Shown: one piece after another, positions 1 through 50,055 of the stretch
How the letters are laid out: every line of letters begins with the position of its first letter
Position numbering within the stretch: the first letter of the stretch is position 1
Source of the DNA: Chthonomonadaceae bacterium
GTDB lineage: Bacteria; Armatimonadota; Chthonomonadetes; Chthonomonadales; Chthonomonadaceae
Length of the DNA stretch: 50,263 bases
Reading direction: 5' to 3'
Assembly: GCA_025352825.1 (NCBI GenBank)
Contig: JANXSG010000072.1
Coordinates: forward strand, 1 to 50,263
Translations under genes and position numbers: made by a program
The notes under the pieces: model-generated
Told to the model about the DNA's origin: nothing
The model's database searches: none
Seen by the model: the letters and a program-made list of their open reading frames with translations, nothing else

Positions 1-50
1 AAAAGTGTAACTTGAGGTGATTGCAAAACCTATGGAAATACAATTTTATA

Positions 51-187: not shown

Positions 188-1670
188 ACAATTCTGTTCG
201 GTTAACATATTTTTATTGTTGGTGCAGCTCTCACTGATTGTTTTTCGCCTCGCCTATCGCGTGGATATAGAGGGAAATTCGTCATTTTGTGCTTAACACC
301 TCGCATATTTTTTCTCGGCTTGCGTTCTGGTAATCTTATTCTCAGTATATCATTTAAAATGAGGTCATAATATCTTTTCTTACCCTGAGGGGGGGGTAAG
401 GACGTACAAAGGAAGACTTCTCTTAACTGTTTCGAGCGAATGAACGAAAGAAAGCCTGTTCGGCTCGATGTCTGCTATTAGCGCAGCATCATGCATAATC
501 GTTCGAACCGCATTGTGGGCGAGCAGGAATCCCCAGAACTCCTGAAGTACACCTTCGGGTGTTTTGCTCCGCATAACAATATTGCGTCCTCGAAGATGTG
601 TTTTGAATTCATCCAGTGTCGTCTCGATCTCCCATCGCTCTGCATAGAGCCTGGCCAGTTCCAGAGCGGGAGCCATTGCTGGATCGAGTATGCTTGTCAA
701 TAAACGATATACAGTATCAATGTATTCATCGGGCGCATCATCGGTTTGCAATCGATATTCTACCACTCGAACGCGCACGCCGTTGCGTTTTTGCGCACGG
801 TCTTTGTCTGACGGGTAGATCGTAGATAGATAGGAACCATCTGCCAGATGCTCTTCGTCTGGCAATATAAGTAAATTTTTTACCCGCCACAAGAGAGCTG
901 TGCCCTGGGCGAGTGTAAGTGTCCAAAGGTCAAAACCAAAAAAGCCTCTGTCTGCAAGGCAGAGCATATCTGTAGTAAGGTTTAGTAAGACATCGTGCGC
1001 TAATTTGATCTCGCTGACGTTGTAGCCGCCGACCTTCGTTCCGAACAGAATGTGTGTACCATTCTCAAGAAGCGAACAAAACCGGATCTGCGGAAATGCA
1101 CTGCCTAATCCTCGGCTGACACCGGGCCGGCCGAAGCTGGCCTCATTCAAATTAGTATCGCCGACATTCATAGTGCTGCCATCTAGGCTTACGAGTCTCC
1201 AATCTCGGTAGAATGCACCACGGGTCGCTTTAGTGGCTATAGGTCTTATCATTTTCTCGGCTAGCAGCCTAACAGGTTCTTGGCCAAGACGAGTACGTGC
1301 TTCTGAGATAGAAGACTTAGCAGGAATGGCTATTTTAGCACGTTTATCAAACCAGTTAAAGGCATGTACGACTACAGACAATATCTCTTCGTAGGATATT
1401 TGCATATAAAGTGCGAGTACAATAACATAATAAACCATGAGGGTTGCGGGCAGAGCGCGTTCACGTATACTCCGCCGCCCTGACTCAGCAAGTACTTCGT
1501 TTACTTTTGCTAGCGGGTATACTTTTGCGAGTACAGAAACGCTTATAATGTCGGTGATGCGCACACCACCAGGTAAAGCTGCTGCTTCTTTAGGCATTTG
1601 ATAACCTCTTCTTTCGATATGTGATAGAAGAGATAATACCATAAAATTATGTTAAACGAACAGTATTGGG
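188..1670 (-). mobile_element. IS4-family insertion sequence with terminal inverted repeats
   Basis: The element carries one IS4-type transposase. Its ends are inverted repeats of about 21 bp: left end 189-209 reads CAATTCTGTTCG then GTTAACATA, and the complement of the right end (1648-1668) reads CAATACTGTTCG then TTTAACATA. A direct repeat GTTAGGC lies just outside both ends (181-187 and 1671-1677), as expected for a short target-site duplication. The exact outer bases are uncertain by 1-3 nt because the two ends differ there. Confidence 0.75.
202..1597 (-). CDS. IS4-family DDE transposase, frameshifted near the C-terminus
   Basis: This gene would catalyse transposition of the surrounding IS. 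The N-terminal part resembles the IS4 N-terminal domain (GVRITDIISVSVLAKVYP region), followed by an RNase H-like DDE core. Acidic residues are visible in LVSLDGSTMNVGD (first D), CLADRGFFG (second D) and YAERWEIETTLDEFK (the E). The start at 1597 has AGAGG 7 nt upstream; an in-frame ATG at 1642 has none. In the primary frame a stop occurs at 380-382, just after a run of eight C (387-394 on the + strand as G). In the neighbouring frame translation continues through an IS4-like tail (RYYDLILNDI, LPERKPRKN, KMTNFPLYP) to a stop at 202-204. A seven-C run would restore the full protein of about 460-480 residues. It may be a real inactivating mutation, a sequencing error or slippage. Confidence 0.8.
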
Positions 1671-1739
1671 GTTAGGCGAAAAGTTATATTGCACTGACTT
1701 ATCCAATTACCTCGTATGCATAAAAAAGTTTCGTTTCGA

Positions 1740-5890: not shown

Positions 5891-6058
5891 GCCCTCACCC
5901 CCCGCCCCCTCTCCCAAAAACAGGAGAGGGGTGACAAAGGCAAAAGGATGCCATTTCTGCATAAAGTTCTCAATGAATTCCAACTTTGTGGTAATCAGGA
6001 AACATAGATTATTACACCTCCTCTCCTGTTTTTGGAAGAGGAGGCAGGGGGTGAGGGC
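5891..6058. repeat. dispersed inverted-arm repeat, locus 2 of 6
   Basis: The left arm runs GCCCTCACCCCCC...CTCTCCC then AAAAACAGGAGAGG. The right arm (from about 6020) is its complement with a few mismatches, ending GGGGGTGAGGGC. Each arm is about 39 bp, with some 90 bp between them. It fills most of the gap between the small membrane protein and the esterase. Short open frames crossing it are repeat-encoded and not convincing genes. Confidence 0.75.
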
Positions 6059-8817: not shown

Positions 8818-8838
8818 TAAATAATAGCCTTCTATTTC

Positions 8839-8950
8839 GGGGGGTTGAAAACTCCCGGCATCAAAAAACAGGCGTCTTTCAGACGCAATTCCCGTCTGCT
8901 GAGCGGTTGGCCGCAGGCCTCCCAGAAGGGTATTTCAGTGCCCGGCAATG
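8839..8950. repeat. hairpin repeat family B, copy 1
   Basis: The unit begins with a GGGGGTTGAAAACTCCC stem-loop, continues GGCATCAAAAAACAGGCG, then a GCGTCTTTCAGACGC stem-loop, and ends about 60 bp later with CAGTGCCCGGCAATG. A nearly identical unit lies at 29814-29926, with shorter copies at 29929 and 16548. It fills the tig-clpP gap and could act as a transcription-attenuating structure. Confidence 0.75.
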
Positions 8951-8999
8951 AATTCCTTCACCATTAGTCCCGTAAACACCTCATCAGGAGTACCAGAGA

Positions 9000-16538: not shown

Positions 16539-16547
16539 AGTGGATAC

Positions 16548-16596
16548 AGGGATTGAAAAATCCCGTCTGGAAAAAACAGGCGTCTTTCAGAAGCAT
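16548..16596. repeat. hairpin repeat family B, partial copy
   Basis: A GGGATTGAAAAATCCC stem-loop is followed by AAAAAACAGGCGTCTTTCAG, matching the front half of the units at 8839 and 29814 with the second stem imperfect (AGAAGC instead of AGACGC). It begins about 10 bp after the solute-binding protein stop and could serve as its transcription end. Confidence 0.55.
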
Positions 16597-29675: not shown

Positions 29676-29813
29676 ATACATCCTGCTAAGCTGTACCCTC
29701 ATCCATATTAGCATTAGGTTAGGGAGTTAAATTGCGTTCAAAATGCGTGCAGTATTGCTTTTTCCAACGACGGGATTTAGGGGACGTGAAAGTAATCGCA
29801 AAAACGACTATTT

Positions 29814-29978
29814 CCGGGAGTTGAAAACTCCCGGCATCAAAAAGCAGGCGTCTTTCAGACGCGAATCCCGTCCAGAGTACGGCTGGCCGCAGGCCTTCAA
29901 GACGGGTACTTCAGTGCCCGGCAATGTTCCGGGAGTTGAAAACTCCCGGCATCAAAAAACAGGCGTCTTTCAGACGCG
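29814..29978. repeat. hairpin repeat family B, one full and one partial tandem copy
   Basis: Copy 1 (29814-29926) runs from the stem-loop CCGGGAGTTGAAAACTCCCGG through GCGTCT/AGACGC to CAGTGCCCGGCAATG, like the unit at 8839. Copy 2 (29929-29978) repeats only the first two stem-loops. Between 29979 and 30211 nothing else is recognisable apart from an AT-rich stretch ahead of the next gene. Confidence 0.8.
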
Positions 29979-30211
29979 ATCTACGTCCAAAGGTGTTCCT
30001 CGGAATAAGTTCGAATGAGGATTGAGAGAGTTCTGATCTCGGTAATTCATTCTGCAAAACCTTTCCAGAGAATTTTAAAAAAATATATATTATTTATTTT
30101 CCTTTCATGTGATTTTCATCTAGACAGTGGATACTATCATCGTTGGGCAATGATGAGCAACATAAATGGGCCGAGAACCAAAGAGGTTCCCGGTGGAGAG
30201 AGGAAAAGAAA

Positions 30212-31075
30212 ATGAAAACTGGAAACTCTTGGAAAACAAAAAAGATTATCCTGGCAGCTCTGGTTGCAGGATCGGTCAGCGGATCGATAGCTTTCGCTCA
30301 AGGTTCGGAAGGTTTCGGCGGCCCTGGTGGTCCTCCCCCCAGGCATGGCAGAGGAATGCCGCCATTTGGCAGCCCAAGGCGAGTAACTGTTTTAGACTTA
30401 CCGATGCCAGTTCTCAGCGCTGGACTTAAACTTACAGAAGATCAGCAGAGCAAGGTTCACGACATACAGAAGAGCTTCCGCGATCAGCGAGATTCACTAA
30501 TGCCCCGACGAGGACCAGATTCCGGAGGGCCGCCAGATCAGAGCACCATGCAGGCTAACATGGAAAAGCTAAAAGCGCTGGATGCAGCAGCAAACAACAG
30601 CATCAAAGCGGTGCTGAACGCTGACCAGAAGGCGCTGTTGCCAGATCTGCTCAAAAATATTGAAACGCTGCGAGCTGCGGGTATTCCAGCGGAGCTTTAT
30701 GGCAAGCTTAACCTCAGCGATGGGCAGACAAAGAAAATTGCCGAAATAGTGCAGCAGGCTCAGCAGGATATGCATGCCAAAATGGAAGCTGCTCGCCAGA
30801 GTGGTGATTTTGAAGCCACTCGCAGCGCTATGGATCAATCGAGGGCAGAAACCCATCAGAAAGCGATGGCGATCCTTACCGACGATCAGAAATCCATGGT
30901 CGAGCAGTTCATAAAGGATCACCCTCGGCCTCAAGGAGGCAGAGGGGGAGGCCCGGGTCGAGGGCATGGCGGCCCGCCACATGACGGTTTCGGCCCACCT
31001 CCTGGCGGAGGTCCAGACGGTGGGCCACCACCACCTGATGGCCCTCCACCAGGCGGTGATCCCTCAAACTCCTGA
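30212..31075 (+). CDS. Spy/CpxP-like periplasmic protein with Gly/Pro-rich tail
   Basis: The 287-residue product has a Sec signal peptide (MKTGNSWKTKKIILAALVAG, cleavage after IAFA). A first Gly/Pro/Arg-rich stretch follows, then an all-helical region with two LTxxQ-type repeats (LKLTEDQQSKVHDIQKSF and LNLSDGQTKKIAEIVQQAQ) plus a third, ILTDDQKSMVEQF. These resemble the Spy/CpxP periplasmic chaperone and metal-stress fold. The last 45 residues are almost only Gly, Pro, Asp and Arg (GGRGGGPGRGHGG...), probably disordered. The ATG at 30212 follows GGAGAGAGG. A chaperone-like or metal-related role is inferred from the fold alone. A strong hairpin terminator follows. Confidence 0.7.
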   Translation: MKTGNSWKTKKIILAALVAGSVSGSIAFAQGSEGFGGPGGPPPRHGRGMPPFGSPRRVTVLDLPMPVLSAGLKLTEDQQSKVHDIQKSFRDQRDSLMPRRGPDSGGPPDQSTMQANMEKLKALDAAANNSIKAVLNADQKALLPDLLKNIETLRAAGIPAELYGKLNLSDGQTKKIAEIVQQAQQDMHAKMEAARQSGDFEATRSAMDQSRAETHQKAMAILTDDQKSMVEQFIKDHPRPQGGRGGGPGRGHGGPPHDGFGPPPGGGPDGGPPPPDGPPPGGDPSNS

Positions 31076-31108
31076 TGAGTTCAGGCGGTTCGAAGGGATT
31101 CAAGCGAA

Positions 31109-31151
31109 CAAAGAAAACGAGTGCTGAAAATTTCAACGCTCGTTTTCTTTG
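31109..31151 (+). terminator. intrinsic terminator after the Spy-like gene
   Basis: CAAAGAAAACGAG (31109-31121) and CTCGTTTTCTTTG (31139-31151) are perfectly complementary over 13 bp, with a further TGAAA/TTTCA stem in the loop. The T-rich right arm takes the place of a separate U tail. Confidence 0.75.
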
Positions 31152-31231
31152 TGACTCTACTCTATCGGAAATCTTGTTAGAATAGTATTCATGTGGTAAT
31201 TGCAAAAAGTCTGCAGTATACGCACATTTTA

Positions 31232-31411
31232 GCCCTCACCCCCTGCCCCCTCTCCCAAAAACAGGAAAGGGGAAAACTAAATATGTGGCTTACTATCTCC
31301 CATTTCTTGGGAGATTCGATTTTATTAAGATCAAAACCTTATATCATATTGAAAAACCTACGCCAATGCCCCCCTCTCCTGTTTTTGGGAGAGGGGGCAG
31401 GGGGTGAGGGC
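31232..31411. repeat. dispersed inverted-arm repeat, locus 3 of 6
   Basis: The left arm starts GCCCTCACCCCCTGCCCCC then TCTCCCAAAAACAGG. The right arm from about 31373 is its near-exact complement ending GGGGGTGAGGGC. Roughly 100 bp of AT-rich DNA lie between the arms. The arms match those at 5891-6058 closely. Confidence 0.8.
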
Positions 31412-39727: not shown

Positions 39728-39856
39728 CCTACCCCCCCCGGCCTCCTTCCCTGACCACGCAAACGATAAAGCTGTTTGCGTTAGGGAAGGGGGAGAACTA
39801 ACGATCAAAATTCCCCCTTCTCCTGTTTTTGGGAGAAGGGGTCACGGGATGAGGGC
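39728..39856. repeat. dispersed inverted-arm repeat, locus 4 of 6
   Basis: It starts CCTACCCCCCCCGGCCTCC then TTCCCTG and ends GGGGTCACGGGATGAGGGC. Inner inverted parts are TTCCCTGACC...TTAGGGAAGGGGG and CCCCCTTCTCCTGTTTTTGG, which folds on itself. It combines features of the 51-187 and the 5891-type elements. Confidence 0.65.
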
Positions 39857-39878
39857 TGACAGGAAGATTAGCCACAAG

Positions 39879-39899
39879 CGAAGAAATTTATTTCGTCGC
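39879..39899. promoter_or_regulatory. 21-bp imperfect palindrome before mbfA, second copy
   Basis: This is the same element as at 4119-4139 (GCGAAGAAAT at one end, ATTTCGTCG at the other), one base different, 35 bp ahead of the start of the iron-transporter gene. A metal-responsive operator is one possibility. A mobile small hairpin is another, since a dispersed repeat ends just 22 bp upstream. Confidence 0.4.
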
Positions 39900-39933
39900 A
39901 TTCATTTGCAATGTCTTTAGGAGAAAGAATAAT

Positions 39934-45520: not shown

Positions 45521-45640
45521 CCTCACCCCCCGGCTCCCTCTCACAGCCTGCTCGTTCCTCGCAAGGGGGAGGGGGTGACTCAATAAAAGCATTTCTCCCC
45601 TTCTCCTGTTTTTGGGAGAAGGGGTCAGGGAGGTGAGGGC
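45521..45640. repeat. dispersed inverted-arm repeat, locus 5 of 6
   Basis: It starts CCTCACCCCCCGGCTCCC then TCTCACAGCCTGCTCG and ends CTCCTGTTTTTGGGAG, AAGGGGTCAGGGAGGTGAGGGC. The arms are mixed: the left inner part resembles locus 6 (TTCCTCGCAAGGG), and the right resembles loci 2-4. This hybrid indicates that two sub-types recombine. Confidence 0.75.
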
Positions 45641-47392: not shown

Positions 47393-48723
47393 CAATTTCC
47401 CTGCAGCGCTTTAAGGCCGTTCAAGGCGTGAGCGTTCTTGGAGTCTATCTGAACTACGGTCTCGTATTCGTCCCGCGCCATCGGTTTCATCCCGAGATCG
47501 CGGTAGCGATCTGCCAATGCCAGGTGAAAATTAGCACTCTCAGGATGAGTGAACACCAGTGACTGCAGATGCTTGAGCTGCTGGGCATTGAATTCGACTT
47601 CGCGTGCTGCTTCTGCCACCTTAGCGGATCTGGATTTATTACCCATGCGCCCGTAGATTACCGCTAACTGCTGCAGTGGAAACGACCGATTGGGGTCGAG
47701 CCGAACAGATGTCTCATATGCCATTTTCGCTTTATCTAAGCTATTCGCATGAAGCAGCGCGCTTCCAAGCCTCTCCTGAAATACGGGGTTATCTGGTTTC
47801 GCTGCCACTGCCTTCTGAAAATAGAGGAGCGCCTTTTCGTCGGCTCCAGGTTCCCCGCTCTCCTGCCATAATCGTCCCATCATTTCATTAAGATTGCCGT
47901 CCTCCGGCTGGGCAGATAAAGCCGTCTCGACTATCTTCCTTCCTTCCACTCGCTTCTGTTGTTTCAGGTAGAGGTTCCCCAGACCATAAGCTATATCCGC
48001 CTGTTCCGGGTGAATGCCGTTCGCTGTGATCAGATGTTGTACAGCAAGATCGATGTTGCTTTGTGCAGCATAAGCGCGCCCTAAAAGATAGTGGATACCT
48101 GCTTTGTCTCGCCATTGTGGGAGTAAGTTGAGCAGTGTCTTTTGCGCATTTTCGATGTCAGCAGAGTGGATTCCCATTCCATTCGATTGGATCGCCCACT
48201 GTAGTGTGGCAGCGGCCACACCAAACTGGTTATGCGGGTCGGATGGCTTTAGCTGAAGCGCACGTTTACCTGCCCAGAGTGATCGTTGGTAGTTCTCCAT
48301 GCTGTAGAGTGTGACAGACAACCCCTGCCATGCCCGATCGGAATTCGGCCACACTTGCAGGATAGCTGCATAGGCACGCACTGCATCCGGGTATCTTTTT
48401 GCACTGCTGTAGACTTGAGCAAGAGTGATCTGAGCAGTCTCATTCTGTGGCTGAAGGCGTGCGAGTATCTCCACCTCACCAGCACACTGTTCCTGCATGC
48501 CTAACCTGGCATAAATTTCTGCGAGATCCTGATGCGGCCTGACTTCGGCAGGGTTAGCAGAAATTTGATGGCGCAGCTGAGCAATCTGCTTTGCCTCCCG
48601 CTGAATCAACTGCCGCTGCTTTGCAGCAGGATCGGCAAGCGGCTTCCGCCTCGACATCACCACCGTGCGCGCACCCAGCGCGATCACAATGGCAACAATA
48701 CCAAAAATAATTAGCTTATTCAC
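47392..48723 (-). CDS. membrane-anchored TPR-repeat protein, module copy 2
   Basis: The 443-residue protein starts with a membrane segment (MNKLIIFGIVAIVIALGART) followed by basic residues (MSRRKP), then about nine TPR units. Typical ones are VRPHQDLAEIYARLGMQEQ, PDNPVFQERLGSALLHANSL and SANFHLALADRYRDLGMKPM. In contrast to copy 1 the positive charges lie after the helix, so the repeats could face the cytoplasm, or the segment could act as a signal peptide. Its stop overlaps the start of the CRTAC1-like gene. Repeat locus 6 lies directly upstream, separating it from the prepilin at 49030. Confidence 0.85.
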   Translation of the reverse strand: MNKLIIFGIVAIVIALGARTVVMSRRKPLADPAAKQRQLIQREAKQIAQLRHQISANPAEVRPHQDLAEIYARLGMQEQCAGEVEILARLQPQNETAQITLAQVYSSAKRYPDAVRAYAAILQVWPNSDRAWQGLSVTLYSMENYQRSLWAGKRALQLKPSDPHNQFGVAAATLQWAIQSNGMGIHSADIENAQKTLLNLLPQWRDKAGIHYLLGRAYAAQSNIDLAVQHLITANGIHPEQADIAYGLGNLYLKQQKRVEGRKIVETALSAQPEDGNLNEMMGRLWQESGEPGADEKALLYFQKAVAAKPDNPVFQERLGSALLHANSLDKAKMAYETSVRLDPNRSFPLQQLAVIYGRMGNKSRSAKVAEAAREVEFNAQQLKHLQSLVFTHPESANFHLALADRYRDLGMKPMARDEYETVVQIDSKNAHALNGLKALQGN

Positions 48724-48730
48724 TCAGTAA

Positions 48731-48965
48731 CCTCACCCCCCGACCCCCTCTCCCGTCTTGCTTATTCCTCGCAAAGGAGAGGAGGAGGGTTAGATCTGAT
48801 GATGTTGATATTGATATAGATTGTCCATTATACCCACAAGACTTGGAATGATTTCAATAACTATCCTATGCACCTTTATACTTTGAAGTGAATGCTTTTA
48901 CTTTAAGCCTCCCCCTCTCCTTTGCGAGGAACGAGCAAGACGGGAGAGGGGGTCGGGGGGTGAGG
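48731..48965. repeat. dispersed inverted-arm repeat, locus 6 of 6, 52-bp arms
   Basis: Left arm 48731-48782 and right arm 48914-48965 are inverted copies of 52 bp with about two mismatches. Each starts CCTCACCCCCCGACCCCC and includes CGTCTTGCT and TTCCTCGCAAAGGAGAGG. The 131 bp between them are AT-rich and show no gene. This is the most intact copy and looks like a miniature inverted-repeat element. Confidence 0.85.
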
Positions 48966-48968
48966 TAA

Positions 48969-48997
48969 AAAAGCCCCATAAAAATTATGGGGCTTTT
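48969..48997 (-). terminator. intrinsic terminator of the 49030 prepilin
   Basis: AAAAGCCCCATAA and TTATGGGGCTTTT form a perfect 13-bp stem with a 3-nt loop. On the minus strand the right arm ends in a run of T. It lies 33 bp past the prepilin stop. Confidence 0.85.
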
Positions 48998-49029
48998 CAT
49001 ATAGAAACGGTACTTCTCTGGGTTGCTTC

Positions 49030-49947
49030 CTAGTTGGGGAAGTAGGTCAGAGTTGAACCGCTGCGGTTTTTCGGAGGAGTACCGGTGGTATCCCACACTA
49101 CGCAGGTGGATTTGACCTGGTAGAACTTGACATGACCATCGGCAAACTCATAGTTTGCACCACCTGTGTGACGGGCCAGGGGAGCCGGGGGATTGTAGTC
49201 CCATGATGCCCAGTCGTCTCCAAGGCCATGGTAAGCTGTGTTATTACACAGATCTTCCATGGGCAAATTATACGCGCCATTCACATACAGAGGATCTTTA
49301 GCTGGTCGTGAACCATCTGGATAGGTTCCAAATGCTCGTCCACGATGACCAACAGTGTAGCCTCCACGATCGTAGAGATTATTTTCGTTCGTAGGATCTG
49401 CTTGAGTTTCATCAGCACGAGCGCCTGCTCCACTGCTTCTACTTCCTTCCGAGATCAGAATAGTACTGGAAGGGAAAGAGAGTGAACCATCACTTATTGC
49501 ATTGCTAATCATAGCTCCATTACCGTAATCGCCGGCAAGTCTTCGGTTAATGACGTAGTTTGTAACTCCAGTAGGACCGTCATTGTTACCGTTGAAATTG
49601 ATTCCATCGTCAGTGGATGGCTCTTTGAAGAGGTTACCGCTCTTGACATAAGGAAGTACTGCATGTTCCCAGCCAAATGCATTATAAGTGAACCGACTGT
49701 CCATCGGATCAACTCCACCAGGACCGGGGTAGTACACTGCAAGCGGGAATGTCTCATCATAGTCCTGGACATACATCAATACCGCCAGGCCAATTTGCTT
49801 CTCGTTAGAGAGGCAAGTGGCTCCATATGCTTTTTCACGAGCCTGTGCAAAGACAGGGAATAAGATTGCGGCGAGAATCGCGATAATTGCGATCACGACG
49901 AGCAGCTCTATCAACGTGAAGGCTGAGGACCTTCTACTATTTCTCAT
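49030..49947 (-). CDS. type II secretion/type IV pilin-like prepilin with H-X9-DG motif (DUF1559-type)
   Basis: The 305-residue prepilin begins MRNSRRSSA, then [20 protein letters not shown] and [18 protein letters not shown]. The residue before Phe is Ala, not the usual Gly, which may slow or alter cleavage by prepilin peptidase. The body contains [19 protein letters not shown]. The tail has the canonical H-X9-DG ([12 protein letters not shown]). GGAG lies 7 nt before ATG 49947; a second ATG at 49974 overlaps that site. A strong terminator follows. TPR and CRTAC1-like genes lie downstream on the same strand across repeat locus 6. Confidence 0.9.
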
Positions 49948-50055
49948 CAGTTGTCTCCTTGTAATATTTCTCATGCCGGGAATTTCTGGGATATCCCGGC
50001 TGCCAATCCTGTGTTTACGGAATCCATCAAAATACAGTCATTAGAACATCAGCAT

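Follow-up and report, generated by a model that had tools for sequence, protein, structure and literature searches.

Triplex-type repeat units in inverted doublets, some of them carried inside MITEs, between the genes of a Chthonomonadaceae bacterium

Bacteria commonly contain intrastrand triplex repeats (PIT elements; Hoyne et al. 2000, as cited by Holder et al. 2015), which have been associated with instability of the genome; in E. coli, they are represented by BoxC/PIT/TM_ECO, a class II intrastrand triplex motif (Holder et al. 2015, PMC4666352). In the accessible parts of that report, five inverted pairs of two sub-types are counted among 23 copies, in vivo footprinting of the motif showed no triplex, and TM_ECO was not found to be associated with high-mobility elements. 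The repeats described here share the layout of this motif, and some copies of them are cargo of MITEs with clear target duplications.

The DNA analyzed here (the window) is a stretch of 50,263 nucleotides, contig C70 of a 4.87-Mb draft genome (298 contigs, 95%-complete). A helicase encoded in the window shares 55% identity with one of an uncultured Chthonomonas and 52% with one of a Chthonomonadales bacterium, which points to an armatimonadete as the most probable source. The initial annotation had recognized in it a family of palindromic elements with GC-rich inverted arms at six loci (51, 5891, 31232, 39728, 45521 and 48731), and every one of these is present. The arms are indeed inverted and GC-rich, but the maximum length of 52 bp given for them was too low, the longest measuring 63 nt. 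Chance does not account for the six loci: the arm pattern matches the window 4 times with up to 3 mismatches, compared to 0 matches in 100 dinucleotide shuffles, and a finder for a hairpin with a C-rich tail detects 7 units in the window and 0 in each of 100 order-1 simulations. The arms are not confined to these six places; a genome-wide search (up to 2 mismatches) yielded 67 + 79 matches, against 2 + 6 for the reversed control pattern, that is, 146 versus 8.

In aligned copies, every arm folds on itself: the tail CCTCACCCCC and a short spacer precede the stem CCCCTCTCC, which a loop separates from its complement, GGAGAGGGG. Read along the G-rich strand, a C-stem and a loop come first, followed by the G-stem, a short turn and a G-tract, the last tract being the mirror of the G-stem; class II intrastrand triplexes have this layout, with a mirrored G-rich third tract in addition to a C-rich stem and its G-rich complement. 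The loops are of type A (CAAAAACA), type B (about 20 nt around TTGCTCGTTCCTCGCAA), type C (around AACTCGCAAGCTCGTT) or type D (CGAAGCTTCG), and type E units have the tail CCTAACCCCC, the stem CCTTCCC and a loop with CAAACGATAAAG. Among the 68 loops of the 466-kb sample defined below, 36 measure 7-10 nt and 32 measure 20-24 nt. Duplex folding as DNA yields the expected hairpin, with energies better than those of shuffled sequences for the G-strand units at 31371 (z -2.6) and 48904 (z -2.2) and not clearly better for the other three of the five units tested (z -0.5, -1.1 and -0.7). The window contains no Rfam match at the gathering score.

The focal locus is bordered by two minus-strand genes, a TPR gene starting at 48723 and a pilin-like gene at 49030-49974, and its inverted arms at 48730-48792 and 48904-48966 are 63 nt long and 94% complementary. 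Sequence, arm comparison and the unit finder place the left unit at 48731-48792, with the C-rich strand on the plus strand; it consists of the tail CCTCACCCCC (48731-48740), the spacer CGA (48741-48743) and the stem CCCCCTCTCC (48744-48753), followed by a long loop and then GGAGAGG. When read from the sequence with the 3-nt spacer, the tail agrees with the mirrored stem at 10/10 positions under triplex rules; a script restricted to shorter spacers scored the unit 7/9 in its register. An AT-rich center of 111 nt (48793-48903) is followed by the inverted right unit (48904-48965, minus strand), which has a loop with TTGCTCGTTCCTCGCAA and the G-rich strand on the plus strand. Outside the element, a separate hairpin and T6, read from the sequence at 48966-49005 on the minus strand, are the likely terminator of the 49030-49974 gene, and received no score in the terminator scan. 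On the minus strand (48723-48743), the unit end GGTGAGG precedes the GTG start codon of the TPR gene by about 7 nt and could be used as the ribosome-binding site of that gene.

Two other loci, at 5891-6058 (arms 5891-5929 and 6020-6058, 39 nt, 92% complementary; no recognized shell) and at 31232-31411 (arms 31232-31272 and 31371-31411, 41 nt, 98% complementary), are doublets with A loops. The two inner-arm sub-types and the hybrid at 45521 that had been distinguished are borne out for the latter locus (45521-45640, a B-loop unit and an A-loop unit), but the locus at 39728-39859 is a hybrid too, of a type-E unit (loop CGCAAACGATAAAG) and an A-loop unit, and the locus at 51-188 is of a related, different type, namely, a type-E palindromic doublet (CCTAACCCCC tail, CCCCCTTCC stem, CTTCCC) within the outer MITE layer that we denote shell A. 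Left of the 31232 doublet, a degenerate shell-A terminal repeat, GTGGTAATTGCAAAAAGTC, was recognized by eye at 31193-31211 (plus strand); the 60-nt flank that contains it gave no significant repeat by blastn. The window has several additional palindromes. A near-perfect one of 45 bp (31108-31152) separates the 31232 doublet from a gene that ends at 31075; a stretch adjoining the 39728 locus (39860-39900) is similar to GCGACGAAATGAATTTCTTCGC, a palindrome with long inverted copies; and a second intergenic repeat family (CCGGGAGTTGAAAACTCCCGG ... GGTACTTCAGTGCCCGGC) is present at 29768-29988, 8832-8952 and 16547-16596 and is related to the palindromes flanking a Y1 transposase gene on the stretch denoted L031.

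Covariation between stem and third strand provides a sequence-only test for the maintenance of triplex geometry. Under the triad rule, a T in the stem should meet A or T at the mirrored position of the tail, and a C in the stem should meet C. We shuffled the tails among the units in 1000 permutations, choosing the register anew for every permutation. For the 148 distinct units of this genome, 1178 of 1332 positions were compatible, against 1136.7 +/- 5.7 in the permuted sets (maximum 1153; z 7.3), and for 39 units of relatives, 307 of 351, against 290.5 +/- 3.1 (maximum 302; z 5.3); these figures can be inflated by common descent, and the statistic does not fully part structural selection from the descent of a few subtypes. 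An earlier run with shorter spacers, also with the register chosen anew per permutation, gave z values of 4.6 and 5.5. The dinucleotide AA occurs in the tail of 14/31 units with a TT stem and 13/117 units with other stems (Fisher 6.6e-5), and in the relatives, in 6/10 and 2/29 units, respectively (0.0014). Relatives of the genus denoted g4 show a clean paired change, with the stem CCCCTTCTCCC accompanied by the tail CCCTCAACCCC. As far as can be judged from the aligned units, stem and tail vary together in the manner that triple-helix pairing requires.

Densities and gene contexts were taken only from a sample of eleven segments of at least 15 kb (465,758 bases), since a larger collection of 858 kb is enriched for arm and shell matches. 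The sample yields an estimate of about 700 units per genome, which may be high because the sampled contigs were chosen for holding arm matches. The arms are mostly arranged as inverted doublets of a fixed size, about 122 or 180 bp: in the stretches analyzed for pairing, 118 of 176 units form 61 inverted pairs. All 19 A-A pairs measure 174-181 bp, 15 of the 19 B-C pairs measure 117-125 bp (the remaining four, 179-258), both C-C pairs measure 122-123 bp, and three of the five D-D pairs measure 181-184 bp (the remaining two, 53 and 56); within one size class, the interiors of the doublets are similar.

Beyond the arms, many copies have additional sequence in common, in which two terminal repeats, those of shells A and B, are prominent. 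The shell-A repeat GAGGTAATTGCAAAAGTC occurs at 94 + 101 places in the genome (control, 1 + 0), and the repeat of a second shell, B, AGGGGTTGTGAAAGTAAT, which continues to GCGACGGGCTAA, at 46 + 41 places (control, 0 + 0). Shells and interiors have been combined in several ways because the pairs of shell ends hold different interiors. Of 36 non-overlapping shell-A pairs in the collected sequence, 27 hold triplex-type units, 5 hold a different palindrome, GCGACGAAATGAATTTCTTCGC (for which loci L213, L215, L224 and L229 are named), and 4 were scored as neither (49, 58, 73 and 112 bp, the 112-bp one with a short CCTAACCC palindrome); of 20 shell-B pairs, 11 contain the palindrome family that also flanks the L031 Y1 gene, 8 contain triplex-type units and 1 was scored as neither. 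The palindromic modules AAGCTGGCATAGCCAGAACC and TTGCGTTCAGAATGAACGCAA recur around shell B (flanks of L234, L239 and L241; copies in C39, C63 and C124). An insertion of shell B at the center of the GCGACGGGCTAAAG palindrome was considered and dropped; both halves of that palindrome are the outer part of the terminal repeat of shell B itself, and we therefore claim no insertion at the dyad.

In a first test on 40 shell-A pairs, some of them overlapping, a target duplication of 4 bp stood out among lengths 2-12, and the 4-mers on the left and right are identical in 10/35 pairs, against an off-pair mean of 0.44 and a maximum of 2. With terminal inverted repeats, a target duplication of constant length, many copies and no gene, shell A is a MITE. 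Its parent apparently is a decayed IS1182/IS5-like element of 982 bp (L285:852-1833), as judged from shell-A-type ends enclosing pieces of a transposase (DUF772, DDE_Tnp_1_6) with stops and weak IS1182/IS5 matches. A search of the draft genome with PF01609 found 7 places, none of them an intact transposase between two shell-A ends, and the idea of an intact autonomous shell-A element was dropped, the decayed one being the only element with such ends that was found.

A transposase with matching ends was found for one layer of a nest. At the start of the window, 14-1713, three elements are nested: a shell A with degenerate ends (GAGGTGATTGCAAAACCT at 14-31, plus strand, 4 mismatches; 1696-1713, minus strand, 2 mismatches) contains the type-E doublet (51-188), and an IS4-family insertion sequence (189-1668, minus strand; ends CAATTCTGTTCGGTTAACATA and TGTTAAACGAACAGTATTG) sits in the end of that doublet. 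The insertion sequence encodes an IS4-family transposase (380-1642, minus strand; NF033592, 204.9 bits, cut-off 115) and is flanked by an imperfect 10-bp target duplication, GAGTTAGGCA (179-188) and GGGTTAGGCG (1669-1678), identical at 8/10 positions; shell A at 14-1713 has no visible target duplication (ACTT/GTAT). The ends of this insertion sequence begin with CAATTCTGTTCGG, and the same ends are found on two elements elsewhere, a 290-bp element at C32:9817 with a perfect 10/10 duplication (AATCTAATCC) and a 291-bp element at C138:2836 with an 8/10 duplication, both of which carry shell B with a B-C triplex doublet. The 290-bp element, an IS4-type MITE, has ends and duplication length in common with the resident insertion sequence. 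It adjoins an A-loop unit, and the C138 element occupies the same GGGTTAGGCA-type target as the insertion sequence in the window. Shells are nested within one another, and small palindromic elements pile up. According to Tobes and Pareja (2006, PMC1525189), insertion sequences are said to use REP palindromes as targets; here, the end of a type-E palindrome is occupied at an identical position by the IS4-family element of the window and by one MITE, with these two as the only cases.

Most of the doublets have no visible shell, since only 9/34 sampled loci have a recognized end of shell A or B within 90 nt (71/3000 random positions) and 34/52 outward 60-nt flanks in the collected sequence are unique. 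The other 18/52 flanks are repeated, compared to 16/163 control intergenic 60-mers. Hence, about one third of the loci have repeated flanks and there the doublet is inside an outer MITE shell, whereas two thirds are unique-flanked, including the focal and the 31232 loci by the 60-nt test; within the window, only the locus at 51 is clearly in a shell. At the arms themselves, a search for target duplications in 67 elements gave only weak signals among 132 shift/length tests and nothing convincing; the duplications of 4 bp (shell A) and 10 bp (IS4-type MITE) belong to the outer shells of some carriers, the terminal repeats of which are sequences other than the arms. The elements are, then, a dispersed, non-autonomous, MITE-related family as initially proposed, but the arms are not demonstrably its transposing ends, nor is the family demonstrably active. 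The shell-less doublets may have been inserted long ago and their shells since eroded; alternatively, doublets might be mobile by themselves. We regard it as rather unlikely that the triplex doublet is mobile in its own right, through an enzyme that would recognize three-stranded ends rather than a fixed sequence; if true, this would explain why units with varied stems and loops and matching third strands occur across Armatimonadota and in a cyanobacterium, why the sizes are near 122 and 180 bp, and why the majority is in unique DNA without a target duplication.

The distribution of the units extends beyond this genome. The arm pattern is present in 16 of 61 genomes, including this one (G003, 38 places; G006, 9; G012, 8); in G003 and G012, many arm matches lie less than 100 nt from contig ends, as if the repeat breaks assemblies. 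Among 20 stretches from genus g4 (G003 and G012), 19 have a single unit, five of these ending at a contig end close to the unit, and one has two units in the same orientation. Units with the core GCTCGTTCCTCGC of the B-type loop are present in G042, which belongs to a different family of the phylum. In a Pseudanabaena plasmid, two such units stand inverted to each other within a gene annotated as a methyltransferase. Shell-A ends are found in other genera of the order, with 95 matches in G020 and 147 in G025 and any match in 15 of 41 genomes, this one included; seven distinct shell-A pairs from other genera measure 88-120 bp, contain no CCTCACCC doublet and have an exact 4-bp duplication in 5/7 cases. 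Phage and plasmid origins were considered and rejected; among phages, only a 19-nt match turned up, and among plasmids, two Pseudanabaena records matched over about 45 nt.

As initially noted, all six window loci lie between genes, and so do 33 of the 34 loci of the 466-kb sample, in which 82% of the bases were called coding (gene positions are from a simple purpose-written caller). For the 30 loci with two gene neighbors, these are in tandem in 18 cases, divergent in 6 and convergent in 6 (3 more loci are at segment ends), compared to 188 tandem, 43 divergent and 30 convergent among all gaps of at least 40 nt. The alternative suggestion of a structure at mRNA ends, that is, a 3'-end stabilizer or bidirectional terminator acting in RNA, agrees with the formation of hairpins by the units and with a median distance of 90 nt to a gene end against 213 nt to a gene start. 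However, only 6 loci are between convergent genes, so the units are not dedicated terminators, let alone always terminators of convergent genes; the stems lack the T-run that follows the hairpin of an intrinsic terminator at gene ends, and the gene upstream of the focal element is already followed by a separate hairpin with T6. Furthermore, in the accessible parts of the study on the E. coli motif, earlier tests are described as having revealed no promoter or terminator activity, and purine-motif triplexes are stated not to form in RNA (PMC4666352), yet stem and tail covary. We give an RNA-level role hardly any credence.

The readings at the DNA level differ in what is taken to move or to be conserved. 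The doublet could be a mobile unit of the REP/BIME or REPIN kind, for which a Y1 (HUH) transposase of the RAYT/IS200 type would mobilize the single strand without target duplication: the anatomy resembles head-to-head REP dimers, as far as these are described in the consulted sections of the review (PMC3733652), no duplication was detected at the arms, the 34/52 unique flanks indicate that the repeat often stops at the tails, and the genome has two Y1_Tnp genes (L031 1402-1872, 156 aa; L032 1483-1896, 137 aa). However, the palindrome that borders both genes is a different one, containing GGTACTTTAGTGCC or a near copy, and not the CCTCACCC units; the scores of both proteins pass the IS200/IS605 cut-off without reaching the REP-transposase cut-off; and the units have no GTAG or CGTC tag at the stem foot. 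With other ends on the two Y1 genes, RAYT-driven movement was dropped, and this kind of origin seems unlikely to us. That the G-run tract GGGAGAGGGGGCAGGGGGTGAGGG is kept as a G-quadruplex and not as part of a triplex is highly improbable: although all 6 canonical G4 motifs of the window are within these loci, a G-quadruplex requires neither the A/T matching of stem and tail nor a C-rich partner, and the two units of the focal locus, each with a complete hairpin and tail, gave no canonical G4 match in the scan. The arms have the terminal inverted position expected of the repeats of a DDE transposon, and several internal sequences have the same ends, but an ordinary MITE family in which the fold is incidental is very unlikely given that the symmetry of tail and stem is mirror and not only inverted, that the unit is alone in 19/20 g4 stretches (five cut by a contig end), that its occurrence, with differing loops, extends across the phylum and to a plasmid of a cyanobacterium, and that no duplication was found at the arms.

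The interpretation that we favor, and consider reasonably probable as a whole, is that of triplex-type units that are arranged in doublets and have spread partly as passengers of MITEs. The unit is a C-rich/G-rich hairpin in which the G-rich strand turns into a second, mirroring G-tract that could fold back as a third strand, and two such units inverted around an AT-rich center make up each doublet (about 122 or 180 bp). The doublets would have spread through intergenic DNA at least partly inside MITE shells with terminal repeats of their own, for which resident insertion sequences would supply the DDE transposases in trans, presumably an IS1182/IS5-like enzyme, of which a decayed copy is all that is found, for shell A, and the IS4-family enzyme present in the window for the 290-bp shell. 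Insertion of shells and doublets into one another would then account for the nested palindromes. In the cell, the units would probably, in single-stranded form, locally impede replication or strand exchange rather than terminate transcription.

Compared to PIT/BoxC/TM_ECO, as described in the accessible parts of the report, the units have the same C-rich stem, G-rich stem, short turn and mirrored class II third tract, and are likewise intergenic, with many copies and inverted pairs of two sub-types (PMC4666352). The loops, in contrast, measure 7-10 or 20-24 nt here and 3-6 nt in TM_ECO, and the turn lengths differ as well; the published TM_ECO pattern (loop of 3-6 nt, 3-nt turn) has 0 matches in 465,758 bases, and we therefore regard the units as a variant of the kind, not TM_ECO itself. 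Another difference is that some copies here are inside MITEs with target duplications, whereas TM_ECO is described in those parts as without mobile-element association (PMC4666352). With REP/BIME/REPIN and RAYT (Di Nocera et al. 2013, PMC3733652), so far as the consulted sections of the review describe them, the elements have in common head-to-head hairpin dimers with outward tails, intergenic location and mosaics of several palindromes; they differ from these in lacking the GTAG/CGTC tag, in the mirror symmetry of tail and stem, in that the Y1 genes of this genome carry other palindromes, and in that some copies are in DDE-type shells. Our literature search, with most subscription papers outside its coverage, found a single paper on units of this kind (PMC4666352) and no report tying such units to MITEs. 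The likeness to bacterial MITEs with IS5/IS1182-like or IS4 ends, namely, terminal repeats of resident insertion sequences and duplications of 4 or 10 bp, covers only the shells; the inner doublet, unlike these, is a separate module that also occurs shell-less. The carriage of triplex-type units by MITEs is the new point, and suggests one way in which such repeats could spread.
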